From positions 3,224,001 to 3,288,000 of the forward strand of contig NZ_CP014136.1 in assembly GCF_002291425.1 (NCBI RefSeq): a stretch of DNA of 64,000 nucleotides. The letters run 5' to 3'. The DNA comes from Gibbsiella quercinecans. Lineage in GTDB: Bacteria > Pseudomonadota > Gammaproteobacteria > Enterobacterales > Enterobacteriaceae. The notes under the pieces were generated by a model. That model saw nothing but the letters and a program-made list of their open reading frames with translations, ran no database searches and was not told where the DNA came from. The translations under genes and the position numbers were made by a program. Every line of letters starts with the position of its first letter. Position 1 is the stretch's first letter. Positions 6,689-20,022 of this stretch are shown here, piece by piece.

Positions 6689-8104
6689 TTATCCTTGGTT
6701 AGCAGGAACGGGAACGTCTTTTTTAATCACCCGCAGGATCAGCGCTGTCAGTAAGCTGCCCGCGGCGATCGCCAACAGGTAACCCAGCACATTGCTGATG
6801 ACGTTAGGAATGAAGATGACAAATATGCCGCCGTGTGGTGCGCGGGAGGCGCAGCCGAGGATCATGGAAAGCGCCCCCGCCAGCCCGGAACCGGCGACGA
6901 TGGCGGGGATCACCCGCAACGGATCGGCTACGGCATACGGGATCGCGCCTTCGGTAATGAAGGACAAACCGAGGATGTAGGTGACTTTACCGGTTTCACG
7001 CTCCTGCTCGGTGAACTTGCGGCGAAAGAGCGTGGTTGCCAGAGCAATACCCAGCGGCGGAACCATACCCGCCGCCATGCAGGCGGCGATCGGCCCGTAG
7101 ATACCGCTCGACATCAGCCCGATAGCGAACATACAGACGGTTTTATTCAGCGGCCCGCCCATATCGAAGGCCACCATCATGCCGAACAGCAGGCCCAGAA
7201 TGGCGGAGTTGGCGTTTCCCAGCGAATTGAGGAAATCGGTCAGCCATCCCAGCAGCATCTTGATCGGCTCACCGATCAGCAAGGCCATTAACGCGCCGGT
7301 CAGTAGCACGCTAAGCAGGGGCACAATTAAAATCGGCTTTAACCCGGCGATCGCTTTCGGCAAACGAATGTGATTGACGATAAGCAGGGTGATATAGCCC
7401 GCCAGAAAACCGGCGATTAAGGCGCCAAGGAAGCCCGAGCCGGTATGAATCGCCATCATGCCGCCCACGGCCCCGGCGGCAATGCCCATTTTCCCGCTGA
7501 TTGACTGGCTGATCCCCAAGGCGAGGATCGGCAGCATCAGTGCGAAGGCGGAGCCGCCGCCGATGTCGGACAGCATTTTGGCGATGGGGCTGAAGTGCAC
7601 ATCGCCCGGCGTGGCCGCGGTAATCCCGAAGGAAAAACTCACGGCGATCAGGATACCGCCGGCGATAACGAACGGAATCATCAGGTTAACGCCGGTAATC
7701 AGGTGCACGTAGATTTGTGAGATAAAGGAACGCGAATTTACGTCATCTTTTTCCGCGTTTGCGGGCGCAGCCGCGGCGGTATCCTGGAGTAGCCGCGGTG
7801 CCAATTCACCGCTGATAATTGCCCTAAGCAGGCCTTCGGCATCTTTTGCCGCGCGGGTGACGGGAACTTCAATGACATTTTTATGCTGAAAGCGCGACAG
7901 TTCGATTTTCTTGTCGGCGGCAATTAATACAATATCAGCCTGATGAATATCTTCATCACTAAAGACATATTCACTTTCAACGGCACCTTGTGTTTCAACT
8001 AAAACATGGATGCCCATTTTCTTAGCCGCTTTCTTTAAATTACTTTCGGCCAGGTAAGTATGGGCGACCCCCGTAGGACAAGCGGTAATGGCAATAATGT
8101 TCAT
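6689..8104 (-). CDS. PTS fructose-family EIIBC permease
   Basis: Inner-membrane permease that imports and phosphorylates a sugar. The N-terminal EIIB domain (residues 1-100) starts MNIIAITACPTGVAHT, with Cys9 as the phosphorylation site of the fructose-specific IIB family. An Ala-rich linker (about 105-120) leads to the EIIC domain (about 125-460) with some ten hydrophobic segments and the family strings PFVIAGGILIA, AFDMGGPLNK and ITEGAIPYAVADP. Length (471) matches EIIBC proteins of the FruA/FrwBC group that lack a fused EIIA. Its EIIA partner is encoded upstream in the same direction, with 135 bp between that contains nested inverted repeats. Sugar specificity is unknown; fructose-like or tagatose-like ketohexoses are the usual substrates. 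Confidence 0.92.
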   Translation of the reverse strand: MNIIAITACPTGVAHTYLAESNLKKAAKKMGIHVLVETQGAVESEYVFSDEDIHQADIVLIAADKKIELSRFQHKNVIEVPVTRAAKDAEGLLRAIISGELAPRLLQDTAAAAPANAEKDDVNSRSFISQIYVHLITGVNLMIPFVIAGGILIAVSFSFGITAATPGDVHFSPIAKMLSDIGGGSAFALMLPILALGISQSISGKMGIAAGAVGGMMAIHTGSGFLGALIAGFLAGYITLLIVNHIRLPKAIAGLKPILIVPLLSVLLTGALMALLIGEPIKMLLGWLTDFLNSLGNANSAILGLLFGMMVAFDMGGPLNKTVCMFAIGLMSSGIYGPIAACMAAGMVPPLGIALATTLFRRKFTEQERETGKVTYILGLSFITEGAIPYAVADPLRVIPAIVAGSGLAGALSMILGCASRAPHGGIFVIFIPNVISNVLGYLLAIAAGSLLTALILRVIKKDVPVPANQG

Positions 8105-8156
8105 AAACGTTCTCCAGTAATCAGGAAACGATTTGATGTGTTTTTATTTTTACTGA

Positions 8157-8189
8157 GATAGCTACGGCAAAGTAGCGTATAAAGCTATC
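8157..8189 (-). promoter_or_regulatory. Nested inverted repeats between EIIA and EIIBC genes
   Basis: In the 135-bp spacer, GATAGCT and AGCTATC form an outer pair and GCTAC-GGCAAA-GTAGC an inner hairpin that shares bases with the outer arm. There is no T-run, so it does not look like a terminator. It may set the relative stability of the EIIA and EIIBC parts of the transcript. The same spacer repeats GGCGCCAGAA at 8222 and 8243, the second copy covering the last codons of the EIIA gene. Confidence 0.35.
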
Positions 8190-8239
8190 ATTGTGACTTT
8201 TTACGTCACCGTATTATTTATGGCGCCAGAAGATATAAA

Positions 8240-8713
8240 TTAGGCGCCAGAATGTGATAACAGCAAATGAAATATCTCCTCCCTGTTTTTAACATGAAGA
8301 AGTTGATCGACGACGTCTTCATCGCCTAATGCGATAGATATTTTTGCCAACATTTTTATATGGCCGACATCCTTATCCGATTCTTTCACGGCAAACAGAA
8401 TAACCAGCCGTACTTTGGTTCCGTCAATGGTTTCCCAAGGGATGTCACGGCGTAAGCGGCCCACGGCGATACGTGTTTTAGCGACCGCCACCGATTTGCC
8501 ATGCGGGATTGCAATATGATTTTCAAAACCGGTGGAGCCCAGCTCCTCGCGCAGATAAACGTCGTTCAGAAATGTTTCTTTATTCGTCACGGCGCCGGTT
8601 TGGCAGAGCAGATCCGTCAGCTTGGCAATAATTTGTTCCTTACTTTGGCAATCCGCATCGAGAATAATGCACTCTTGTTGCAATACATCGTTAATAGCAA
8701 CGGTTGTGTTCAT
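8240..8713 (-). CDS. PTS fructose-family EIIA component
   Basis: Cytoplasmic phosphocarrier of the PtsN/fructose EIIA family, 157 residues from the chosen ATG at 8713. An earlier in-frame ATG (8725) would add MGCI, but the GGGATGGGATG just upstream places a ribosome site better for MNTTVAIND. The active-site His is His71 in NHIAIPHGK, preceded by the conserved REELGSTGFEN. The protein would take phosphate from HPr and pass it to Cys9 of the EIIBC encoded downstream. It is the first gene of the EIIA-EIIBC-aldolase unit and lies 22 bp from the regulator gene, which is upstream on the same strand. Confidence 0.9.
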   Translation of the reverse strand: MNTTVAINDVLQQECIILDADCQSKEQIIAKLTDLLCQTGAVTNKETFLNDVYLREELGSTGFENHIAIPHGKSVAVAKTRIAVGRLRRDIPWETIDGTKVRLVILFAVKESDKDVGHIKMLAKISIALGDEDVVDQLLHVKNREEIFHLLLSHSGA

Positions 8714-8735
8714 AATACATCCCATCCCATTGTGA

Positions 8736-10250
8736 TTAATTAATCGAATTGGCGACCAGGCACTCGGTCACTCTTGCAATATCTTTCGCCGAGAACAGCG
8801 CTGACACATACACCACCGGCTTTTCCAGTGGCTCCAGCCTGATGGTGGAAATCACCACATCGCACTCATGCCGTTGCAGCGATGCGGCAATGTTTTTCCC
8901 CGGCACCACATCGATGATTTTCCAGTCAGGAAATGCGCGGATAATCCGGCCATACAGCAACTGCGATGTGCCAAGCCCACTGGAACAGACCAATAAAACC
9001 CGTTTTACCTTGATACTGTTTTCAATCGCCGCCTGTATATGCACTGTGAGATAGGCCACTTCATCATCACTGATTTCATCCAAACCGTCTTCTTGCGCCA
9101 ACTGGTTGATCACGCTTTTCACCGCAGCAAACACGCCGCCCAGCTCGGTTTGAATATCATGCAACAGCGGATTTTTAATGCGAATGCGGTAGGTCAGCCG
9201 GTTCAGCATGGGTTTTATATGCGAAGACAGCGAAGCCAGTAAGTTTTCATCGCCGGTTATATCGACATGAATTCGCTTGGCGACGCGGCCGATCAGCGCT
9301 TCGGCAAAGCGGGTTTCACGCTGGGAAACCCGTGGCCGATCGTAAGGCGCAGCATCGCCGCCCGTCTTGCCTGAAGAAACCAGATATTGATAAATCGAGT
9401 ATGCTTCTTCCGCTACCAATACGGTGCTGTAAGCCGCTTCAATACGTTCAATCACTGCCAGCGAAACCTGCCATGCGTGCTGGTCATGCACCGTATTCAC
9501 CCGCACGGCACGTGCATCGGTTCTCTGCAACGGGGAATGGCTACGGTGGATCAGGACCAGAATATGTGTGAATAAATTGATGTAGTAAGGATCGCTGATC
9601 GTGTACTGAAGCTGTTGTTCAATAAAGTTAATTAATTGCAGGGTAAAATGGACGGCCTGTTTGCCAAATTTCTCTGCCAGTTCATGCAGCGTGCCTTCAT
9701 CAAGCCGGCTTTCCAGCATGTCCTGATGATTATAAATGGATTTTAATACCAGTGCTTTCATGGCTACACGGATATTATGGTCACTGCCCCTAATACTGGT
9801 GCCGCTCCGGCTTTTCATTAATGTTAAATCAAATTTATGTAACCAGCTTTCCAGCGTTTTCAGATCGTTCACAATGGATGCCCGGCTGATAAAATATTTA
9901 TCGGCCATCTCACTGATGGAAGAGCCACGCGGCGATAACATTAATAGGTCAGAGGCGATTTTCAACATGCGGAAATTACGCTTAAACTCGTCGCTTTCCG
10001 AAGAGAAAATACGGCGGGCGGATATTTCCGATTGCGCATCGGCAAATTTAATGGTGATTCCGCGCCCGCTTTTTCCACACAGAGTTATCCCCTGTGCTGA
10101 TAGCTTATCGTTAATATCGGCGATATCGCGTCTGAGTGTGCGCGTTGATATTTGGATTTTCTCAGACATGCAACGCAGGCTCACATAGCTGTTGTGAGAG
10201 ATAAGCTGCCGCATTATATTCAGTTGCCGCTCAGTCAGCCCCTTCATCAT
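8736..10250 (-). CDS. PRD-containing transcriptional activator/antiterminator, BglG/LicR type
   Basis: Regulator of the adjacent PTS genes, controlled by PTS phosphorylation. The frame is open to 10388, but ATG 10250 is chosen because it has a GGAG 8 bp upstream and gives MMKGLTERQLNIMRQLI, the usual start of an HTH_11 domain. Order (504 residues): HTH at about 5-60 (SEKIQISTRTLRRDIADIND), a second Mga-like HTH about 95-160 (MADKYFISRASIVNDLKTLE), PRD1 about 175-280, PRD2 about 300-400 (LSSHIKPMLNRLTYRI; DEVAYLTVHIQAAIE), then a C-terminal EIIB-like domain with VLLVCSSGLGTSQLLYGR. There is no C-terminal EIIA domain, unlike LicR or MtlR. It is read in the same direction as the PTS genes, so it is probably co-transcribed and autoregulated. 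Confidence 0.85.
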   Translation of the reverse strand: MMKGLTERQLNIMRQLISHNSYVSLRCMSEKIQISTRTLRRDIADINDKLSAQGITLCGKSGRGITIKFADAQSEISARRIFSSESDEFKRNFRMLKIASDLLMLSPRGSSISEMADKYFISRASIVNDLKTLESWLHKFDLTLMKSRSGTSIRGSDHNIRVAMKALVLKSIYNHQDMLESRLDEGTLHELAEKFGKQAVHFTLQLINFIEQQLQYTISDPYYINLFTHILVLIHRSHSPLQRTDARAVRVNTVHDQHAWQVSLAVIERIEAAYSTVLVAEEAYSIYQYLVSSGKTGGDAAPYDRPRVSQRETRFAEALIGRVAKRIHVDITGDENLLASLSSHIKPMLNRLTYRIRIKNPLLHDIQTELGGVFAAVKSVINQLAQEDGLDEISDDEVAYLTVHIQAAIENSIKVKRVLLVCSSGLGTSQLLYGRIIRAFPDWKIIDVVPGKNIAASLQRHECDVVISTIRLEPLEKPVVYVSALFSAKDIARVTECLVANSIN

Positions 10251-10713
10251 TGCCAGGCTCCGCTTAAGGATGTCACCGCTTTGTGAGTTGTCATCTAAGC
10301 AAAGTGAATATGCCATGTAAATATTAAAAAGTGGCCACAAGGTGGTGCGGAAACTGACCATCATCCGTTTTAGTGCATAGCGATTCACTCTTTAAAGTAC
10401 GCCGCCGGAAAGCGCTACCCCGAGTTGCACGGGGTATTTCCATCGTCGGTAAAACGAGAAGCCGATCACGAATCCTACACTGCAATTATGCGGTTTTGCC
10501 GAGTGATTGCAGGGGAGCGCTGCTGATATTCACCTCATTGCGCTGCCATCGGCCATTTTTGCGAAACAGATCCCTATTGGTCACGCGATTTCCACTTTGA
10601 ACTGGAAAAAAACAGGCTACACAGCACATGCCCCCGGCGGTAGGGTTTAGCCATCAGTTATGCATAGGTTTTGTCATAGGGCGATGGTTCGCGGCACTTA
10701 GGGGTACTGAAAA
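10251..10713. promoter_or_regulatory. Divergent control region between the two PRD-regulated operons
   Basis: This 463-bp stretch must hold promoters for the minus-strand PTS unit and the plus-strand operon that starts at 10714. A 7-bp inverted repeat, CTGCAAT (10480-10486) and ATTGCAG (10506-10512), is centred near 10496 and is a candidate operator. I could not find a convincing sigma-70 pair for either direction or a sigma-54 GG-N10-GC element. The minus-strand reading frame continues upstream to 10388 but lacks a ribosome site there. Confidence 0.4.
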
Positions 10714-11070
10714 GTGAATGAAGGATCTGAACAGGTAAATATACCGCCGGCGGATGACGCGCAGGTGGCGGTAATCACCACGCAGCTGTTGGCCGATATT
10801 ACCGCGATGTTAAACGCAGAGAATATTTATACCAACAATGTGCAGCAACAAATGCTGGAATCGCATGTTCGCGCCATGGTGCAGCGTTCTATTACCGGCG
10901 AGCCCTTACCCGAGGTGGATAAATCGTTATTTGATGAAATTTCGGCGCATTCCATGCAAATGGCCCAGCGCGTGGTGGATCAGCTTAAAACGCTGCCTAT
11001 AGAAGAGGCCTATTTGCTTTCCGTGCATTTTGAAGTGGCAAAAGATAATAACGCATCATCAACAAATTAA
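10714..11070 (+). CDS. Stand-alone PRD domain protein
   Basis: 118-residue cytoplasmic protein consisting of a single PTS regulation domain with no DNA- or RNA-binding part. The PRD features are the paired helices with a conserved His region (MLESHVRAMVQRS) and the C-terminal EAYLLSVHFEVAK, which resembles the E-x-x-Y-L-x-x-H-x-x motif ending PRDs. It starts with GTG (10714), with AGGGG about 10 bp upstream. It is the first gene of the SFCGS-DUF4312-DUF4311-DUF4310 operon. From memory, E. coli YhfY is a comparable lone PRD protein inside another uncharacterised sugar-type operon. A role as phosphorylation-sensitive adaptor or decoy for the PRD regulator at 17675 is possible but inferred. Confidence 0.75.
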   Translation: MNEGSEQVNIPPADDAQVAVITTQLLADITAMLNAENIYTNNVQQQMLESHVRAMVQRSITGEPLPEVDKSLFDEISAHSMQMAQRVVDQLKTLPIEEAYLLSVHFEVAKDNNASSTN

Positions 11071-11083
11071 TCAGGAGAATACC

Positions 11084-11449
11084 GTGGGAAATATTACCGT
11101 AGTGATAGGCGATCGTCTGGGGAAGGGGCAGAAAGTGGGCCTGGGTGTGGAAAGCGCCGGCGGCAAGGCCGTGGTGATCCCCGGTATGGCGGCGGACATG
11201 AAGCTGGGTGACGTGATGAAAGCCGAAAACGCGCAGCTGGGTATCTCTTTTTGCGGCAGCGGCGGTGCCGGCGCCATTACCGCCCAGACGAAATATGGCT
11301 ATAAGTCAAAATACGGCATGCGCTCGATCGAAGAGGGCGTTACGGCAATTAATGAAGGCTGCAATGTGCTGGGCTTCGGTTTTATGGATAAGGAAGAGTT
11401 GGGTAAAAAACTGGTGGAAGCCTACCTAAAAAAATACGGTAACGCATGA
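11084..11449 (+). CDS. Glycine-rich SFCGS family protein
   Basis: Small soluble protein, 121 residues from GTG 11084, which has a strong AGGAG 8 bp upstream; the in-frame upstream extension lies within the previous gene. The family signature GISFCGSGGAGAITAQT is at about residues 50-66. A Cys followed by a Gly/Ser-rich turn after a beta strand looks like a nucleotide- or phosphate-binding loop, or a phosphorylatable Cys as in PTS EIIB. That reading is inference; no function has been established for the family as far as I know. It lies 13 bp after the PRD gene and overlaps the DUF4312 gene by 4 bp (ATGA), so translation is coupled. Confidence 0.82.
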   Translation: MGNITVVIGDRLGKGQKVGLGVESAGGKAVVIPGMAADMKLGDVMKAENAQLGISFCGSGGAGAITAQTKYGYKSKYGMRSIEEGVTAINEGCNVLGFGFMDKEELGKKLVEAYLKKYGNA

Positions 11450-11745
11450 TGAAAGAACAATATACCACATCAGTCATGGTTTCTGGCCGGGGCGACAGCA
11501 AAGCAAAGGCTTTTGCCAGCGCGTTGGCGAATGTGCAGGGTGCGGTATTAAAGTCTACCAATAATATTCTGCTGCGCATTGAGCCGCAGGATGTCAGCGT
11601 ATTAAGCGCGGAAGAAAGAATAATTAAAGAGAAATTCCTTTTTTTCTTTCTGCCGCGTGTAAGAAAAAGCTATGCCGTTTCTCTGGAAATAACCGTGAGT
11701 GTAACAATCATCAATACCGAAAAGGTTGTCTTCACCACGAAATAA
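11446..11745 (+). CDS. DUF4312 family protein
   Basis: 99-residue protein of unknown function found with SFCGS, DUF4310 and DUF4311 genes. It opens with an alternating beta-like stretch (YTTSVMVSGRGDSKAKAF), then helix ASALANVQGAVL, a strand NILLRIEP and a hydrophobic patch FLFFFLPRVRKSY. It ends in two strands (YAVSLEITVSVTII). The look is of a compact alpha/beta subunit rather than a membrane protein. The start overlaps the SFCGS stop (ATGATGA; a second ATG at 11449 is also possible). After its TAA the frame stays open for another 47 codons up to the next gene, which is unusual and is listed as a finding. Confidence 0.78.
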   Translation: MMKEQYTTSVMVSGRGDSKAKAFASALANVQGAVLKSTNNILLRIEPQDVSVLSAEERIIKEKFLFFFLPRVRKSYAVSLEITVSVTIINTEKVVFTTK

Positions 11746-11888
11746 TATATTGGCATATCTCCGGCGGTTGTACGTTACAGGAAAGTGGCGAGGCGAACCC
11801 GTAAGCGCTTGCATCACGAGCGGCTGGGCCGGGCAGCAACGCGAACACGCCTGCAACCTGCAAAGCGCAGGGGAGCAAGGGGCGACTG
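11746..11888 (+). other. Intercistronic spacer with hairpins before the DUF4311 gene
   Basis: The only sizeable gap (143 bp) in an otherwise tightly packed operon. It is GC-rich with several short stems, for example CCTGC-AAAGC-GCAGG near 11855, and ends with GGGGAGCAAGGGGCG just ahead of the ATG at 11889. A reading frame from GTG 11785 (34 codons, Arg-rich) ends TGATG, overlapping the next start, but its composition looks non-coding. It could be a translational control or mRNA-processing segment that sets the level of the membrane subunits. Confidence 0.35.
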
Positions 11889-12665
11889 ATGTTTCTAATT
11901 ATCTTATTTAAGTCGATTATTATCGGCGGGCTGGTCGGCGTGGGCGTTGGCGCCGGTGCGGCACGTATGTTTCATGCGCCAACCACACAGGGCATGGGGG
12001 CCTTCCGCACGCTGGGCGAACTGAACTCCTGCGAAGGCGATCCCGCGTCACACTTCTCATTCGGCCTGGGCTTTTTCTTTAACGCCTGGGCGTCCTCGGT
12101 GGCGGCCGGCGCCTTCACGCAGGATGTCGATCACCGCATTATCCCCAACTGGGGCGCGGCGGCGCTGATGATCAAAAACCGTAACCTGGCGCAAACCCTG
12201 CACGATCCGAAAAAAATGGCCATTGCCTGCGGCATTATCGGCGCACTGGTGGTGGCGTTCCTCAATACCACCGCGTCTGCCGTGCCGGCTGCACTGCAGG
12301 TGACGGCGATCAAGGTGCTGGTACCGGCCGCCAACCTGCTGGTGAATACCGTTATGCCGGTGATCTTCTGGCTGGCGGCGATTGAGGCGGGCAAGCGCTC
12401 CGGCTTCTGGGGCACCATTTTCGGCGGCCTGGCGCAGCTGATTATGGGCAATGCAGTGCCCGGCCTGGTGCTGGGCATTCTGATCGGCAAAGGCGTTGAA
12501 GAGAGCGGCTGGAACCGCGTCACCAAAATCATGATGGCGGCGATCGTCCTGCTGTTCGTGCTGAGCGGCTTCTTCCGCGGCTTTGATATGAAACTTCTCG
12601 AATCCTTCAGCCTGGGCGTGCCGGACTGGCTGAACATCATCCATAACAGCCTGAGCGGCAAATAA
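11889..12665 (+). CDS. DUF4311 family membrane protein
   Basis: Polytopic inner-membrane protein of 258 residues and unknown function. Hydrophobic segments are visible at about 2-22, 55-75, 108-128, 135-165, 180-205 and 218-235. Conserved-looking polar loops include FRTLGELNSCEGDPASHFSFGL (about 40-60) and TQDVDHRIIPNWGAAALM (about 80-97), which contain acidic and His residues suited to substrate or cation binding within the membrane. It lies next to a second membrane protein (DUF4310) 8 bp downstream, and the two would form a heteromeric transporter core. Nothing in it resembles EIIC/EIID of the PTS or an ABC permease that I recognise. Confidence 0.82.
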   Translation: MFLIILFKSIIIGGLVGVGVGAGAARMFHAPTTQGMGAFRTLGELNSCEGDPASHFSFGLGFFFNAWASSVAAGAFTQDVDHRIIPNWGAAALMIKNRNLAQTLHDPKKMAIACGIIGALVVAFLNTTASAVPAALQVTAIKVLVPAANLLVNTVMPVIFWLAAIEAGKRSGFWGTIFGGLAQLIMGNAVPGLVLGILIGKGVEESGWNRVTKIMMAAIVLLFVLSGFFRGFDMKLLESFSLGVPDWLNIIHNSLSGK

Positions 12666-12673
12666 GGAGCGCA

Positions 12674-13327
12674 ATGATGGAAGAACAAACCCAAAAAGGC
12701 TTCTGGTATGCCGACTGGTCGTTCCCGATTTTTGTCGGCCTGCTGTCTTCCGGGGTCTTCGCCGGGACGCACATGTACTACCTGTACGGCATCGGCGCCT
12801 TCAACGAAGTGGCCTTCGTTTCTATGCTGCGGGCCGGCATGGATACCGGCGTTTATGGCGCGGTGGCGGCGTTCGGCGCCAGCTTCCTGTTTGCCCGCAT
12901 CATTGAAGGCTCGCTGGTGGGTATTTTGGACATCGGCGGGGCGATCCAGACCGGCGTGGGGCTGGGCGTACCGGCGCTGTTGCTGGGGGCCGGGATCGTC
13001 TTCCCGGTGGCCAACTTTGCCGCCTCGCTGGCGACCGGCCTGATCATCGGCCTGGCCATCGGCTATGTGATCATTTTGGCGCGCAAATTCACCATTAACC
13101 AAAGCAATTCCACCTACGGCGCCGATGTGATGATGGGGGCCGGCAACTCATCCGGCCGTTTCCTCGGGCCGTTGATCATCCTGTCGGCCATGACGGCGTC
13201 GATCCCTATCGGTCTGGGCTCCCTGCTCGGCGCGCTGCTGTTCTATGTCTGGGGCAAGCCGATTACCGGCGGCGCGATCCTCGGCGCGATGATCCTGGGG
13301 GCGTTTTTCCCGGTGGCGATCGGCTAA
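12674..13327 (+). CDS. DUF4310 family membrane protein
   Basis: Polytopic inner-membrane protein, 217 residues, unknown function. It has a short cytoplasmic N-terminus (MMEEQTQKGFWYADWSFP), then about six hydrophobic segments (around 18-38, 48-75, 85-105, 108-135, 160-182, 185-215). Glycine-rich helices such as GGAIQTGVGLGVPALLLGAG and the loop SNSTYGADVMMGAGNSSGR stand out. It follows DUF4311 by 8 bp with the ribosome site AAGGAGCG, so the products are expected in similar amounts. Together they are the best candidates for the uptake channel of this operon. Function is inferred from context only. Confidence 0.82.
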   Translation: MMEEQTQKGFWYADWSFPIFVGLLSSGVFAGTHMYYLYGIGAFNEVAFVSMLRAGMDTGVYGAVAAFGASFLFARIIEGSLVGILDIGGAIQTGVGLGVPALLLGAGIVFPVANFAASLATGLIIGLAIGYVIILARKFTINQSNSTYGADVMMGAGNSSGRFLGPLIILSAMTASIPIGLGSLLGALLFYVWGKPITGGAILGAMILGAFFPVAIG

Positions 13328-13345
13328 GCCGCGATCGCCAGGCCA

Positions 13346-13369
13346 GGCGGCGCCGTTGCCGGCGCCGCC
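13346..13369 (+). promoter_or_regulatory. Intercistronic hairpin after the DUF4310 gene
   Basis: GGCGGCGCC-GTTGCC-GGCGCCGCC is a perfect 9-bp stem with a 6-nt loop and no T-run. It is likely to protect the upstream transporter mRNA from 3' exonucleases and so separate transporter from enzyme expression levels. Confidence 0.5.
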
Positions 13370-13388
13370 GATGAATACGGAGTAACGA

Positions 13389-14531
13389 ATGATGTATGAC
13401 TTGATTATCCGGCGCGCCAGGCTGGTGGACGATAGCCTGGCCGATATTGCGATCCGCGCCGGCGAGATCGTGGCGGTGGGCGCGCTGCCAACGGCGGCCG
13501 GCGCCAAACGCCAGTTGGATCTGGCCGGCCGTTATTATGCGAGTGCCGGCTGGATCGATAGCCACGTGCACTGTTATCCCGCCTCGCCGATCTACCATGA
13601 CGAGCCGGATCGGGTGGGGATCGCCAGCGGCGTGACCACGGTGATCGACGCCGGCAGCACCGGCGCCAACGATATTGATGATTTTTATACCCTGACGCGC
13701 AGCGCCAAAACCAACGTGTTTGCTTTCCTGAACATTTCCCGCACCGGTATCTCGGCCCAGAATGAGCTGGCCGATATGGCGCAGATCGATGCGCAGGGCG
13801 TGCAGCAGGCGGTGGCCGATTACCCGGATTTCATCGTCGGCATCAAGGCGCGCATGAGCAGCAGCGTGGTCGGCCAGAACGGCATCAAGCCGCTGGTGCG
13901 CGCCAAAGCGATCCAGCAGCAAAACCACCAATTGCCGCTGATGGTGCATATCGGCAATAACCCGCCTGATTTGGATGAGATCGCCGATCTGCTGACCCAG
14001 GGCGACATCATCACCCACTGCTACAACGGCAAACCCAACCGGATCCTGACGCCGGCCGGCGAGCTGCGGGCTTCCATTCAGCGCGCGCTGAAACGCGGCG
14101 TGTTGCTGGACGTCGGCCACGGCAGCGCCAGCTTCAGCTTCGAGGTGGCGCGCCAGGCGATCCAACTGGGCATCCTGCCTTATACCATCAGCTCCGATAT
14201 CTACTGCCGCAACCGGATCAACGGGCCGGTGTACAGCCTGGCGGCGGTGATGTCGAAATTTTTTGTCTGCGGCCTGTCGTTGCCGCAGGTGATCGACTGC
14301 GTGACCCGCCACGCGGCGGCGGCGTTGCGCCTGGCGCGCAAGGGCCAGCTGCGCGCAGGTTTTGACGCCGATTTGACGCTGTTCGACATCCGCCGGGAGC
14401 CGCAGGTGTTTACCGATTCCGAAGGGCAGACCGCCGAGAGCGAACAACTGCTGGTGCCGCTGGCCGCGGTGGTGGCCGGGGATGTCCTGTTAACCGATGA
14501 AGGGAAAGCCGCTCATGTCTTCGATTTATGA
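13389..14531 (+). CDS. Amidohydrolase/deacetylase family metallohydrolase
   Basis: Cytoplasmic TIM-barrel hydrolase of the amidohydrolase superfamily (dihydroorotase/NagA-like subgroup), 380 residues. Metal-site residues can be placed: HVHC gives His59 and His61, the bridging carboxylated lysine is Lys153 in GIKAR, further ligands are His187 (MVHIGN) and His210 (ITHCYNG), and the catalytic Asp is Asp270 (SSDIYCRNR). The N- and C-terminal strands form the usual small beta domain. The family commonly occurs with DgaE/DgaF-type enzymes, where a deacylase or cyclic-amide hydrolase step is assumed; the reaction here is not proven. The gene overlaps the next by 17 bp. In context it would free the amino group of an N-acylated amino-sugar acid before ammonia elimination. 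Confidence 0.87.
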   Translation: MMYDLIIRRARLVDDSLADIAIRAGEIVAVGALPTAAGAKRQLDLAGRYYASAGWIDSHVHCYPASPIYHDEPDRVGIASGVTTVIDAGSTGANDIDDFYTLTRSAKTNVFAFLNISRTGISAQNELADMAQIDAQGVQQAVADYPDFIVGIKARMSSSVVGQNGIKPLVRAKAIQQQNHQLPLMVHIGNNPPDLDEIADLLTQGDIITHCYNGKPNRILTPAGELRASIQRALKRGVLLDVGHGSASFSFEVARQAIQLGILPYTISSDIYCRNRINGPVYSLAAVMSKFFVCGLSLPQVIDCVTRHAAAALRLARKGQLRAGFDADLTLFDIRREPQVFTDSEGQTAESEQLLVPLAAVVAGDVLLTDEGKAAHVFDL

Positions 14532-15630
14532 AAAATACGATTTAAAACCGGTCATTAATACCTCTGGCCGCATGACGATCCTTGGCGTTTCCACGCCGGC
14601 CCAGGATGTGATTGATGCCGTGGATTACGGCCTGAATCACTACTTTGAAATCAAGGATCTGGTCAACAAGACCGGGGCCTATATCGCCGATTTGCTCAAC
14701 GTGGAAAGCGCGGTGGTGGTTTCCTGCGCTTCCGCCGGCATTGCCCAGGCGGTGGCGGGCATCATCGTCAAGGATAACGCCAACCTGTTGGTCAACCTGC
14801 ACCGTGCGCCGGTGAACGAGCCGCGCGAGATCGTGTTGCCGCGTGGGCACAACGTTAACTTCGGCGCTCCGGTGGACACCATGGTGGCGCTCGGCGGCGG
14901 CCGGGTGGTGGAGGCCGGCTACGCCAACGAATGCTCGCCGCAGCAACTGGCGGCCTGCATCACGCCGCAGACGGCGGCGATTCTGTATATCAAATCCCAC
15001 CACTGCGTGCAGAAAAGCATCCTGTCTGTAGAGCAGGCGGTGGCGGTGGCGCGCCAGCATGATCTGCCGCTGATCGTCGATGCCGCCGCGGAAGAAGATC
15101 TGATGTGTTACTACCAAATGGGCGCGGATCTGGTGATTTACAGCGGCGCCAAAGCGATCGAAGGGCCGACCAGCGGCCTGGTGATTGGCCGAAAGCGCTA
15201 CGTGGAATGGGTGAAGCAGCAGTCCGCCGGCATCGGGCGCGCGATGAAAGTGGGTAAAGAAGGGATCCTCGGGCTGACGCAGGCGATTGAAAGCTATCTG
15301 CAGCGCGAAAAAACCAGCGGGGCGCAGATGGTAGAGCGCATGGCGGCGTTTATCGACAGCCTCAATACCCTGAACGGCGTGAGCGCCAGCGTGGTGTGGG
15401 ACAGCGCCGGGCGCGATATCGCCCGGGCCGAGATCGCCTTTGATGAGGCGGCGATCGGCATCTCGACCGGCGAGATCGTCCAGGCGCTGAAAGAGGGCGC
15501 GATCGCCATTTACTTCCGCGGCTACAAAGCCAACGAAGGCAAGATCGAAGTCGACGTGCGCAGCGTTGATGAACAACAACTGATGACCGTATTTACCTGC
15601 CTGAAGAATTTGCTGGAGAAACAAGCATGA
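14515..15630 (+). CDS. dgaE: DgaE-family PLP-dependent ammonia-lyase
   Basis: PLP enzyme of the SelA-like fold. Its Salmonella namesake converts D-glucosaminate-6-phosphate to 2-keto-3-deoxygluconate-6-phosphate plus ammonia. ATG 14515 is chosen (AAGGGA 9 bp upstream), giving 371 residues and the N-terminus MSSIYEKYDLKPVINTSGRMT, typical of the family. The PLP lysine is Lys213 in IYSGAKAIEGPTSG, and LIVDAAAEEDL (187-196) supplies the Asp that pairs with the pyridine ring. It overlaps the amidohydrolase and the next gene (ATGA), so the three enzymes are translationally coupled. The exact substrate may differ from glucosaminate-6-phosphate, because this operon lacks the DgaABCD mannose-type PTS. 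Confidence 0.85.
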   Translation: MSSIYEKYDLKPVINTSGRMTILGVSTPAQDVIDAVDYGLNHYFEIKDLVNKTGAYIADLLNVESAVVVSCASAGIAQAVAGIIVKDNANLLVNLHRAPVNEPREIVLPRGHNVNFGAPVDTMVALGGGRVVEAGYANECSPQQLAACITPQTAAILYIKSHHCVQKSILSVEQAVAVARQHDLPLIVDAAAEEDLMCYYQMGADLVIYSGAKAIEGPTSGLVIGRKRYVEWVKQQSAGIGRAMKVGKEGILGLTQAIESYLQREKTSGAQMVERMAAFIDSLNTLNGVSASVVWDSAGRDIARAEIAFDEAAIGISTGEIVQALKEGAIAIYFRGYKANEGKIEVDVRSVDEQQLMTVFTCLKNLLEKQA

Positions 15631-16367
15631 AGCTGAAGCCGAATTACTACCGTGACCGCGTGTGCCTGAACGTGCTGGCGGGATCGAAAGACAACGCGCA
15701 GGAAATCTACCAGGCGGCGGAAGGGCATGTGCTGGTCGGCGTGCTTTCCAAAAACTACCCGGACGTAGACAGCGCGGTGGCGGACATGGCGAGCTATGCG
15801 CAACTGATTGATAACGCCCTGTCGGTGGGGCTGGGAGCCGGCGATCCGAAGCAATCGGCGATGGTCAGCCTGATTGCCCAGCAGGTGCAGCCACAGCACG
15901 TGAACCAGGTCTTTACCGGCGTGGGCGCCACCCGCGCGCTGCTCGGCCAGAACGAGACGGTGGTCAACGGCCTGGTTTCGCCGACCGGCCGCATCGGCTT
16001 CGTCAAAATTTCCACTGGGCCGCTGAGCGCGCAGGCGCCGGACGGCATTGTGCCAGTGGAAACGGCGATCGCGTTGCTCAAAGACATGGGCGGCAGCTCG
16101 ATCAAATATTTCCCGATGGGTGGGCTGAAATGCCGCGATGAGTTCCGCTACGTGGCGCAAGCCTGCGCTGAGAATGACTTTTTACTGGAGCCGACCGGTG
16201 GGATCGATCTGGAGAACGTTGAACCGATCTTGCAGATCGCCCTCGAGGCCGGCGTTAAACAAGTGATCCCGCACGTTTACAGCTCCATCATCGACGCGGC
16301 CAGCGGCAATACGCGCCCACAGGATGTGAAAAGCCTACTGGCGATCGTCAAACGGTTGGTGGGTTAA
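15627..16367 (+). CDS. dgaF: DgaF-family 2-keto-3-deoxy-phosphogluconate aldolase
   Basis: Class I (Schiff-base) aldolase that splits 2-keto-3-deoxy-6-phosphogluconate into pyruvate and glyceraldehyde-3-phosphate, feeding lower glycolysis. In this 246-residue protein the likely Schiff-base lysine is Lys160 in GSSIKYFPMGGLK, which mirrors the K-F-F-P motif of KDPG aldolases; GLGAGDP and the Gly-rich GLVSPTGRIGF could bind phosphate. It starts within the DgaE stop (ATGA). It completes the predicted pathway amino-sugar acid to keto-deoxy acid to pyruvate plus triose phosphate. Confidence 0.87.
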   Translation: MKLKPNYYRDRVCLNVLAGSKDNAQEIYQAAEGHVLVGVLSKNYPDVDSAVADMASYAQLIDNALSVGLGAGDPKQSAMVSLIAQQVQPQHVNQVFTGVGATRALLGQNETVVNGLVSPTGRIGFVKISTGPLSAQAPDGIVPVETAIALLKDMGGSSIKYFPMGGLKCRDEFRYVAQACAENDFLLEPTGGIDLENVEPILQIALEAGVKQVIPHVYSSIIDAASGNTRPQDVKSLLAIVKRLVG

Positions 16368-16400: not shown

Positions 16401-16422
16401 CCTGTGAATGAAAAGGGCAATT

Positions 16423-17625
16423 ATGCGTAACTGGCAAACAAACGTCCCGTTGTGGGGCGCGGCTTCCCTGCTGCTGGCGATGGCCAGCCCGGCGTTGCAT
16501 GCGCAAGAGGCAACGCCGCATTTCGCCTATATCGGCACATACAACCCCAACGGCGAGGGCATGTATCGCGTGCAGGTTGATCCGGCCAGTGGCGCGCTCA
16601 GCGGCAAAACGTTGGTGAGCACTTTGCCTAACCCGGCGCAGCTGGTGGCGGATGCCAAGGGGCAGGTGCTGTATGTGGCCAGCGAAGTGGCCGATTTCAA
16701 CGGCGGCAAGCACGGCAGCATTAGCGCGTTGCGCATCAATGCCCAGGACGGCAGCCTGGCGCTGCTGAACCAGGTGGATTCCCAGGGCGCCGGCCCGGTG
16801 TTTATTTCCTTAACGCCGGACGGCCGCCATTTGCTGGCCGCCAACTACGTCAGCGGCAGCATTGCCGTGTTCCCGATCGCTGCGGACGGCACGCTGGGCG
16901 CCGCGGTTGCGGTGCAACAGCAGCAAGGCCCGGCCGGGGCCGGCAAACCGGCGGTGGCGGTGGAAGGCAGCTTTGCCATTAGCGATCACGATGGCCCGCA
17001 TGCGCATATGATCGCCAGCGATCCTAGCGGGAAATTTGTCTTTTCAACCGATCTGGGGTTGGATCGTATTTACCAATGGCGGTTTGATCCGGCCGGCGGG
17101 AAGTTGACGCCAAACGATCCGCCGTGGATCGCCGCGTCTTCCGCCGGCGCCGGCCCGCGCCATTTCGTCTTCCACCCGGACGGTAAAACCGTGCTGTTGG
17201 TGAATGAGGAGGCCTCGACCCTGACTCGCTACCGTTTCGATGCAAAAAAGGGCACGCTGGCGCCATTGCAGACGCTGTCTACGCTGCCGGCGCAGTATAA
17301 AGGCACCAACTTTACCGCCGGGCTGGCGCTGAGCACCGACGGTAAAAACCTGTACGTGGCGAACCGCCTGCATAACAGTGTGGCGCAGTTTAGCATCGGC
17401 CACGGCGGCGAGCTGCAACTGCTGGGCGAGGCGTGGACGCGCGGTGACTATCCGCGCACTATCACGCTGGATCCCAGCGGGCGCTATCTGTATGTGCTAA
17501 ACCAGCGCAGCGATAACGTGACCCGCTTTAGCGTGGATAAACACAATGGCAAACTGCATTTTATTGAGGGTTACACACCGGTGGGCAGTCCTTCGCAGAT
17601 GGTGTTTGTGCCTGGCGTAAAATAA
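16423..17625 (+). CDS. Periplasmic lactonase, 7-bladed beta-propeller family
   Basis: Member of the lactonase (6-phosphogluconolactonase/cycloisomerase-like) family, here with a signal peptide (cleavage expected after ASPALHAQ, about residue 28), so it should act in the periplasm. ATG 16423 is preferred because AAAAGGG lies 5 bp upstream; an in-frame ATG at 16408 is within that ribosome site. In the 400 residues propeller blades repeat as PDGRHLLAANYVSGSI, PDGKTVLLVNEEAST, TDGKNLYVANRLHNSV and PSGRYLYVLNQRSDNV. The DGPHAH and GPRHFVFHPDG strings are family features near the active site. A secreted lactonase next to sugar-acid genes suggests opening of an aldonolactone before uptake; that link is inferred. 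Confidence 0.85.
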   Translation: MRNWQTNVPLWGAASLLLAMASPALHAQEATPHFAYIGTYNPNGEGMYRVQVDPASGALSGKTLVSTLPNPAQLVADAKGQVLYVASEVADFNGGKHGSISALRINAQDGSLALLNQVDSQGAGPVFISLTPDGRHLLAANYVSGSIAVFPIAADGTLGAAVAVQQQQGPAGAGKPAVAVEGSFAISDHDGPHAHMIASDPSGKFVFSTDLGLDRIYQWRFDPAGGKLTPNDPPWIAASSAGAGPRHFVFHPDGKTVLLVNEEASTLTRYRFDAKKGTLAPLQTLSTLPAQYKGTNFTAGLALSTDGKNLYVANRLHNSVAQFSIGHGGELQLLGEAWTRGDYPRTITLDPSGRYLYVLNQRSDNVTRFSVDKHNGKLHFIEGYTPVGSPSQMVFVPGVK

Positions 17626-17674: not shown

Positions 17675-19588
17675 ATGGTGAGATTTCCGTATCCGCGTTT
17701 GGCTTATCTGTTTGATGCGCTGCAGGCTGAAACCCTGCCGCAGGATGAGCTGGCGAAGCGTTTTTCCGTATCGACCCGTACGGTGCGCGCTGATATTGCC
17801 GCGCTCAACGATATTCTGGAGCAATACGGCGCGCGCTTTGCGCACAGCCGCGGAGAGGGCTACCGGCTGCAGGTGAATGACGCCGCCCTGTTCGGTACCC
17901 TGCAGCAGGAAAAAAAACGGCGCGCCACGCCGCGCAGCGCCCAGGAGCGGGTGCATGCATTGCTGATTCGTTTTTTGACCTCGGCCTTCTCGCTGAAGCT
18001 GGAGGATTTGGCTGATGAATGGTTCGTCAGCCGCGGCACGCTGCAAAGCGATATGGCGGAGGTGCGTGAGCGGCTGGCGCAATACGCTTTAACCATTGAG
18101 GCCAGGCCGCGCTACGGCATGAAACTGTTCGGGCCTGAAAAAGCAATTCGCGACTGCCTGACGGACCTGTTATTTCAACTGCACCTGGACGATCCGGAAA
18201 ACCCGCTGCTGGAGAACGATATTTTGCACCAGCCGCAGGTGGCGACCTTTGCCGGCTTGCTGCACCCGCTGATGTCGCAATACGCCATCCGCCTGACCGA
18301 CGAAGGCGAGCAGTACCTGATTTTTTACTGCGCGGTGGCGCTGCGCCGCATTCGCGACGGTTACCCACTGCCGGATTTCGACGTGGAGGACGGCGATGAA
18401 GCCGTGCGTAAGGTATCTGTCTGGCTGGCCGGGGAATTGCGCAAGCTGGCCGGCAAAGAGATCTCACCGGCGGAGGAAGCCTACCTGCGGGTGAATATCG
18501 CCGCGCGCCGGGTGCAGGAGGTGCGGCCGACGGAAATCAACGCCGACGATGAAGAAGCGCTGGGGGATTACATTCTGGCGTACATCAACGCACACTATAA
18601 CTACAACCTGCAAGGGGACAAGCAGCTGCGCGCCGATTTGCTCACCCATATCAAAACCATGATTACCCGGGTGAAATACCAGATCAATATCCCCAATCCG
18701 CTGTTGGTCAATATCAAACAACATTACCCGATGGCCTACGACGTGACGCTGGCGGCGGTCACCAGTTGGGGCAAGTACACGCCCTATACCCTGAGCGAGA
18801 ACGAGATCGGCTATCTGGTTTTGCATATCGGCGTGGGGCTGGAACGGCACTACAACATTGGCTACGAGCGCTATCCGCAGGTGATGCTGGTATGCGATAC
18901 CGGCAATTCGACGGTGCGGATGATCCAGGCGCAGATCGCGCGCAAGTTCCCGCAGTTGGTGATGACGCGCATTGTTTCGCTGCGCGACTACGAAGTGTTG
19001 CCGCAGATCGAAGAAGATTTTGTGATTTCCAACGCCCGCGTCAGCGAGAAGAACAAGCCGGTGGTGGTGATGTCGCCGTTTCCGACGGACTACCAATTGG
19101 AGCAGCTCGGCAAGCTGGTGCTGGTCGATCGCACCAAGCCGTATATGCTGGAGAAGTTTTTCGACGCCGGCCATTTTATGGTGATCAATGAGCCGCTCGA
19201 TCAAAAAAGCCTGTTCAAGAAAGTGTGCGATCTGCTGGAGCAGGAAGGCTACGTCGGCGATGATTTTTACCCTTCGGTGGTGGAGCGTGAGGCGATTGTT
19301 TCCACCTTGTTGGGCGAGGGGATTGCGCTGCCGCACTCACTCGGGCTGTTGGCGAAGAAAACCGTGGTGGTGACCATCCTGGCGCCGCAGGGCATCGCCT
19401 GGGGCGACGGCGAGCGGGCGTATGTGATTTTCCTGCTGGCGATCAGTAAAAGTGATTACGAAGAGGCGATGGCGATTTACGAGCTGTTCGTGACTTTTGT
19501 GCGCGAACGTTCGATGAGCCGTCTGCTGGGCAGTGAGGATTTCGACAGTTTTAAATCGGTGGCGCTGGATTGCCTGAGCCGGATTTAA
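17675..19588 (+). CDS. PRD regulator with EIIB-like and EIIA-like domains (MtlR/LicR type)
   Basis: 637-residue regulator. Order: HTH_11 (about 1-60, AKRFSVSTRTVRADIAALND), a second HTH (about 90-155, LADEWFVSRGTLQSDMAEV), PRD1 (about 170-275) and PRD2 (about 290-395, LLTHIKTMITRVKYQI; ENEIGYLVLHIGVGLE). These are followed by an EIIB-like domain (about 405-500) with VMLVCDTGNSTVRM and an EIIA-like domain (about 510-637) with EGIALPHSLG, whose His matches the EIIA phosphorylation site. All parts expected for PTS-controlled activity are present. It is the last gene of the DUF4310/4311/4312 operon and most likely its activator. Its presence is the main hint that PTS phosphotransfer is tied to this operon, although no PTS permease is encoded. 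Confidence 0.88.
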   Translation: MVRFPYPRLAYLFDALQAETLPQDELAKRFSVSTRTVRADIAALNDILEQYGARFAHSRGEGYRLQVNDAALFGTLQQEKKRRATPRSAQERVHALLIRFLTSAFSLKLEDLADEWFVSRGTLQSDMAEVRERLAQYALTIEARPRYGMKLFGPEKAIRDCLTDLLFQLHLDDPENPLLENDILHQPQVATFAGLLHPLMSQYAIRLTDEGEQYLIFYCAVALRRIRDGYPLPDFDVEDGDEAVRKVSVWLAGELRKLAGKEISPAEEAYLRVNIAARRVQEVRPTEINADDEEALGDYILAYINAHYNYNLQGDKQLRADLLTHIKTMITRVKYQINIPNPLLVNIKQHYPMAYDVTLAAVTSWGKYTPYTLSENEIGYLVLHIGVGLERHYNIGYERYPQVMLVCDTGNSTVRMIQAQIARKFPQLVMTRIVSLRDYEVLPQIEEDFVISNARVSEKNKPVVVMSPFPTDYQLEQLGKLVLVDRTKPYMLEKFFDAGHFMVINEPLDQKSLFKKVCDLLEQEGYVGDDFYPSVVEREAIVSTLLGEGIALPHSLGLLAKKTVVVTILAPQGIAWGDGERAYVIFLLAISKSDYEEAMAIYELFVTFVRERSMSRLLGSEDFDSFKSVALDCLSRI

Positions 19589-19749: not shown

Positions 19750-20022
19750 CTAATCCTCATCAAACCCGGCGTTGAACAGTTCGATCACGGCTGCCAGGGC
19801 TTTTTTTTCTTCCGGCCCGTTGGCTTCTACCTCGATCTGCCGCCCCTGGGCGGAATCCAGCATCAGCAACGCAATCACGCTGCTGGCTTCGGCCTCGGTG
19901 CCGCTGTCATTGCGCAGTATCACTTCGGCGTCGAAGCTCTGCACCAGCTCAAACAGCTTCATCGCCGGGCGGGCGTGCATGCCAAGCTTGTTTTTGATTT
20001 CTACCGTTTGCCTGACCGTCAT
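19750..20022 (-). CDS. npr: NPr, nitrogen PTS phosphocarrier
   Basis: HPr-like carrier of the nitrogen-related PTS: takes phosphate from EI-Ntr (PtsP) and passes it to EIIA-Ntr (PtsN). 90 residues; active-site His16 in GMHARP is intact, and [18 protein letters not shown] is the usual HPr second half. It overlaps the rapZ stop by 4 bp and ends the rpoN-hpf-ptsN-rapZ-npr cluster, the same order as in E. coli. Confidence 0.96.

Follow-up and report, generated by a model that had tools for sequence, protein, structure and literature searches.

Results

Gene content of the locus

The window, by which we mean the whole stretch of 64,000 nucleotides analysed, comes from a Gibbsiella quercinecans genome of 5.55 Mb and carries an operon of eight core genes, followed on the same strand by two more.

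10714-11070, plus strand: stand-alone mini-PRD protein, EF_0829 family (TIGR03582, 126.8 bits)
11084-11449, plus strand: SFCGS protein, EF_0830, PF14272 (TIGR03577, 223.8 bits)
11446-11745, plus strand: DUF4312, EF_0831, a small protein (TIGR03578, 125.4 bits)
11889-12665, plus strand: DUF4311, EF_0832, integral membrane protein (TIGR03580, 503 bits)
12674-13327, plus strand: DUF4310, EF_0833, integral membrane protein (TIGR03579, 393 bits)
13389-14531, plus strand: EF_0837-type amidohydrolase/deacetylase (TIGR03583, 560 bits; solved relatives 8wzy and 2ics)
14515-15630, plus strand: DgaE-family PLP ammonia-lyase (TIGR01437, 589 bits; relative 7lc0)
15627-16367, plus strand: DgaF, KDPG aldolase (equivalog NF047796, 392.7 bits, above its cut-off of 300; relatives 3lm7 and 3m0z)
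16408-17625, plus strand: 7-bladed lactonase with an N-terminal signal-peptide-like sequence, judged from the N-termini of relatives (PF10282, 338 bits)
17675-19588, plus strand: HTH_11-Mga-PRD-PRD-EIIA transcription regulator (PF08279, PF05043, PF00874, PF00359)

In family scans of 10714-16367, all eight core families score above their curated cut-offs and stand in the conserved order, and the operon is therefore a member of the EF_0829-EF_0839 cluster of NCBIfam (also AHA_3910-3917), from which it shows no difference; these families are named there as hypothetical equivalogs, with function left open by the curators. Every family named in a preliminary description of this DNA was thus recovered, although that description had counted seven genes and had ended the operon at 16367, missing the lactonase and the regulator. 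The operon in fact continues past DgaF to 19588, and these two genes follow it in identical order in Klebsiella. The tight spacing described earlier holds for most genes, but not for the 143 bp that precede DUF4311 or the 61 bp that precede the deacetylase. The window DUF4310 is 98-99% identical to that of several Serratia species.

The gap between DUF4312 and DUF4311 (11746-11888) is GC-rich, and in relatives its length ranges from almost none to 240 bp. No Rfam match was found in it, nor any RNA family elsewhere in the operon. Across the first operon genes (window 10001-12000) the G+C content drops to 0.50, and it rises to 0.62 once DUF4311 begins.

The family scans also agree with the earlier claim that the operon encodes no EII, kinase, ABC or MFS protein. 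A canonical PTS Enzyme II comprises EIIA, EIIB and EIIC/IID domains, whereas no EII Pfam domain was detected by sequence in the five uptake proteins from the mini-PRD to DUF4310, EIIA being found only in the regulator. By hydropathy, DUF4311 has about 5 hydrophobic segments, DUF4310 has about 6, and DUF4312 has no transmembrane segment. Neither DUF4310 nor DUF4311 matched a transporter family in the scans or a PDB entry by sequence, and no signal related the two to each other. The AF2 model of DUF4311 failed (pLDDT 40.8).

Conservation and co-occurrence

We collected 103 loci, comprising 20 that belong to genomes from the window's order, three plasmid-collection records (Klebsiella, Bartonella and Enterococcus) and 80 from the GTDB collection; most are from Enterobacterales, and some species are present twice. 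The eight genes occur in one single order in all 103, and two further copies, from Salmonella (L182) and Listeria (L180), have the same layout, so the cluster is not a chance arrangement. Gaps longer than 300 bp are confined to the position after DgaF (three loci), to one gene pair in a single locus (L111), and to the DUF4310/deacetylase junction of Enterococcus faecalis. The PRD-EIIA regulator is found behind the operon in 101 of the 103 loci; the exceptions are a short contig (L081) and E. faecalis, which has it upstream. A lactonase gene occurs in 59 of the 103. Carriers include Listeria, Enterococcus, Serratia, Yersinia, Klebsiella, Salmonella (STM4440 to STM4448, locus tags from one record), Aeromonas and Bartonella.

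A survey of 296 genomes from the order found DUF4310 in 42 and SFCGS in 41, always together with DUF4310 (41/41). The one genome with DUF4310 but no SFCGS (G262) is 75% complete, and its gene lies on a 4.3 kb contig. Another genome (G275) retains both genes as short fragments side by side, so the two have decayed jointly. In a sample of the class, DUF4310 was detected in one of 229 genomes, that of the window itself, and all 12 matches in a sample of the phylum fall within the window's own family. Viral contigs yielded no DUF4310 relatives. Three records from a phage collection (L180, L181 and L182) look like host DNA of Listeria, Enterococcus and Salmonella rather than phage.

The uptake block contains no inserted kinase or permease in any locus except that of E. 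faecalis. The preliminary description had proposed to check whether its four families always occur together and have no permease or kinase built in; the former was borne out for SFCGS and DUF4310, and the latter in every locus but that one. In E. faecalis (L034, 12791-19506), DUF4310 is separated from the deacetylase by inserted genes for a lactose/cellobiose-type PTS EIIC and a MupG-type muramidase, a small membrane protein is also encoded, and a PfkB kinase related to KDG kinases follows. The DgaF gene of this strain seems to be broken into two frames. The Listeria copy (L180) consists of just the eight genes behind the regulator, with nothing inserted as far as the record extends.

The SFCGS protein resembles ribose-5-phosphate isomerase B

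The initial clue to the nature of SFCGS was a weak match to ribose-5-phosphate isomerase in the family scan. Its profile scores 33.5 against RpiB, whereas the best of 30 column shuffles reaches 16.9. RpiB and LacAB structures lead a Foldseek search with the AF2 model (pLDDT 84.3), and VIA-align also places RpiB first, its Z reaching 13.0 across 118 residues against about 8 for unrelated folds. The motif SFCGSGGAG, which contains Cys57, is invariant in 103 of 103 loci, and Cys57 aligns with the catalytic cysteine of RpiB. SFCGS is thus predicted from its model to have the ribose-5-phosphate-isomerase-B fold, with an invariant cysteine at the catalytic position, a relationship that is new here.

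Although SFCGS is like the RpiB/LacAB isomerases in fold and cysteine position, it is shorter than they are and falls below their Pfam gathering cut-off (PF02502; 14.4 versus 24.7 bits), so RpiB activity is not implied. In the fold search only RpiB-type structures stand out, a result that makes a known EIIB fold less probable but still conceivable.

A parallel module in Escherichia coli

The yhfS-Z operon of E. coli holds the same trio of a mini-PRD, a small RpiB-like cysteine protein and a multi-pass membrane protein. The YhfU (DUF2620) profile scores 30.6 against RpiB (shuffled maximum 17.5) and, more weakly, 23.3 against SFCGS (shuffled maximum 17.1) with the cysteines aligned, and YhfY scores 32.2 against the mini-PRD, compared with 20.1. 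Of eight loci retrieved around DUF2620 genes, seven have YhfY, YhfU and YhfT together, and the eighth (L173) has no scored YhfY match. Two operon classes thus share a common layout, with a mini-PRD, a predicted RpiB-like cysteine protein and one or more multi-pass membrane proteins.

The yhf operon differs in its enzymes, in having YhfT as a single protein with about 12 hydrophobic segments, and in showing no counterpart of DUF4312. DUF4310 scores 30.3 against YhfT, with a local-shuffle maximum of 29.1, which is only suggestive of kinship; no signal related DUF4311 to YhfT. Operons of yhfS-Z type (L035, 4936-12345, and L167-L174) keep the mini-PRD, DUF2620 and YhfT while their enzymes change.

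Links to the phosphotransferase system

Both histidine motifs of the mini-PRD (His51 and His105) are present in all 103 loci. On two Bartonella plasmids, the operon is followed by its regulator and then by an HPr-EI fusion. Linkage of the operon to the PTS is thus strengthened by this fusion together with the invariant histidines of the PRD and cysteine of SFCGS. The fusion fits a role as a phosphate feed for import, but it could instead feed the regulator alone. Among relatives of the fusion carried by other plasmids, the single annotated case examined, its nearest annotated relative in Caballeronia, adjoins a ptsG-type (glucose-type) permease and not a DUF4310 system.

A divergent fructose-type PTS with its own PRD regulator lies directly upstream of the window operon on the other strand (6689-10388), its EIIBC and EIIA genes occupying 6689-8725. 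That this PTS is the permease of the pathway, as its adjacency, divergent orientation and own PRD regulator might suggest, is very improbable, because no such PTS was found beside the operon in other loci, apart from weak, ptsN-like EIIA matches.

Expression and published observations

Upstream of the operon, 34 of 105 loci have a CRP-like site with no more than one mismatch, compared with about 1.2% in shuffles; the window's own upstream region has no such site better than three mismatches. STM4441-2 of Salmonella are listed as crp-regulated, with function unknown, and as raised in permissive cecal culture, in a study that places STM4446 under protein synthesis (PMC11000858). In E. faecalis, a urine screen recovered a promoter fragment of EF0839 or of its identical copy EF2975 (PMC2912369), and Tn-seq in nutrient medium gave hints that these genes contribute to fitness (PMC7701990). 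We found no functional study under the DUF, EF or yhf names.

Discussion

The most probable explanation of the operon, to which we assign a probability of roughly 0.45, is a PTS-linked phosphorylating importer combined with a pathway that breaks down an N-acylated 2-amino-sugar acid similar in type to N-acetyl-glucosaminate. An N-acyl amino-sugar acid is suggested as the substrate because the deacetylase precedes DgaE, and an aldonolactone outside the cell because the lactonase is predicted to be secreted. Where present, the lactonase would open the lactone in the periplasm. The importer in the membrane would consist of DUF4311 and DUF4310, and its cytosolic subunits would be DUF4312, SFCGS and the mini-PRD. 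Phosphate would pass from PEP through EI and HPr to a mini-PRD histidine, then to Cys57 of SFCGS, which would act like an EIIB built on the RpiB fold, and finally to O6 of the incoming sugar acid. Inside the cell, the EF_0837 enzyme would take off the acyl group, DgaE would eliminate ammonia to give KDPG, and DgaF would cleave KDPG to pyruvate and glyceraldehyde-3-phosphate, with expression controlled by the PRD-EIIA regulator. The enzyme chemistry is taken from the protein families, and we infer the order of the phosphate carriers and the substrate. Chitin oxidised by LPMOs (GlcNAc acid) was considered as a source and rejected: AA10 LPMOs occur in 15 of 42 genomes with the system and 63 of 254 others (Fisher p 0.18), and the window genome has no AA10 LPMO gene.

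Catabolism of D-glucosaminate in Salmonella offers the closest comparison. That system (DgaABCD-DgaE-DgaF) has in common with the window operon a DgaE-type ammonia-lyase, a DgaF aldolase and PTS linkage, and its mannose-family PTS permease both imports and phosphorylates the substrate (PMC9529869). In contrast, the window operon has no EII genes and adds a deacetylase. The window genome has no second DgaE, and Salmonella carries the present operon as well as DgaABCDEF.

A transport role for the uptake proteins is quite probable. The preliminary description had proposed SFCGS, DUF4312, DUF4311 and DUF4310 as a four-protein transporter, and co-occurrence, the insert-free block and PTS linkage all argue for this reading, which is the best available; transport itself is nonetheless something that we infer, a known transporter fold having been neither found nor excluded. 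The uniform gene order and the insert-free Listeria copy also count in its favor, as do the 41 genomes that share SFCGS and DUF4310 and the joint decay of the two genes in G275. Three of the new facts carry the most weight: the RpiB-like fold predicted for SFCGS, the linkage to HPr-EI, and the yhf module that parallels this one. The first of these also cuts the other way, since the fold is RpiB-like and not a known EIIB fold, and the DUF4311 model was too poor to reveal a transporter fold.

That import is coupled to phosphorylation is a more tentative proposal, with a little less than an even chance of being right. The fusion in Bartonella, with its nearest annotated relative beside a glucose-type PTS permease, the invariant His51, His105 and Cys57, the CRP-like sites and the yhfY-yhfU-yhfT module all favor it, and DgaE bears on it directly. 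Equivalents of His163, the PLP lysine and Arg301, 332 and 346 are present in 104 of 104 DgaE sequences, and that of His162 in 103 of 104. In the published DGL work, the 6-phosphate lies near these three arginines, as placed by manual docking (PMC9529869). The same arginines are also kept in 8t7j, a relative whose substrate is not known, and the cluster is thus not specific. Moreover, the window protein scores 364.9 bits against the equivalog for the 6-phosphate enzyme (NF047797), below its cut-off of 600, while exceeding that of the TIGR01437 subfamily.

Alternatively, the importer may act with no phosphorylation at all, which we consider possible but somewhat doubtful. The free acid would be deacetylated, DgaE would convert it to KDG, an unlinked KdgK would phosphorylate this product, and DgaF would then cleave it, leaving the mini-PRD and SFCGS only to couple uptake or expression to the state of the PTS. 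Such a route is allowed because the KDG kinase KdgK is encoded elsewhere in 23 of the 24 genomes tested, all of them carrying the system, and it would also accommodate the low equivalog score of DgaE and the EIIC and KDG-kinase-related PfkB kinase of the E. faecalis operon. However, this frequency may reflect no more than a wide distribution of KdgK in these families, the three arginines are retained in every DgaE, and one genome assembled as a single contig (G294) carries the system without any KdgK match at E 1e-20. The earlier suggestion that the transporter also phosphorylates its substrate is therefore plausible but not required.

It is unlikely that the operon encodes no permease. SFCGS would in that case be an RpiB-like isomerase or epimerase, its conserved cysteine perhaps a catalytic base, with DUF4310 and DUF4311 anchoring a membrane enzyme or signalling complex while an unlinked transporter imports the substrate. 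Its predicted fold and cysteine accord with this idea, as does the lack of a transporter family match for the membrane proteins. Nevertheless, every copy encodes two multi-pass proteins, nearly all loci have no further transporter gene, and the Bartonella plasmid copies bring no other permease in the stretch read.

Despite their wide range, the four core proteins bear only DUF or motif names, and their genes have been numbered by curators for years. If the phosphorylating importer is correct, it would represent a new class of energised transport in which a signalling domain (the PRD) and an isomerase fold have been recruited as phosphate carriers, and it would suggest a possible role for the orphan yhf operon of E. 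coli. We might then speculate, with rather less assurance, that there is a new class of PTS-type permease, having a phosphocysteine subunit on an RpiB fold and a free-standing PRD as first phosphate acceptor, with EF_0829-0833 as one branch and YhfY-YhfU-YhfT, present in E. coli K-12, as the other. As a separate observation, an NPr-like (ptsO) gene on the minus strand (window 19750-20022) faces the end of the operon, and a gene of this kind is a neighbour of the operon in 25 of the 103 loci; these 25 represent several genera and include Aeromonas finlandensis (L123).
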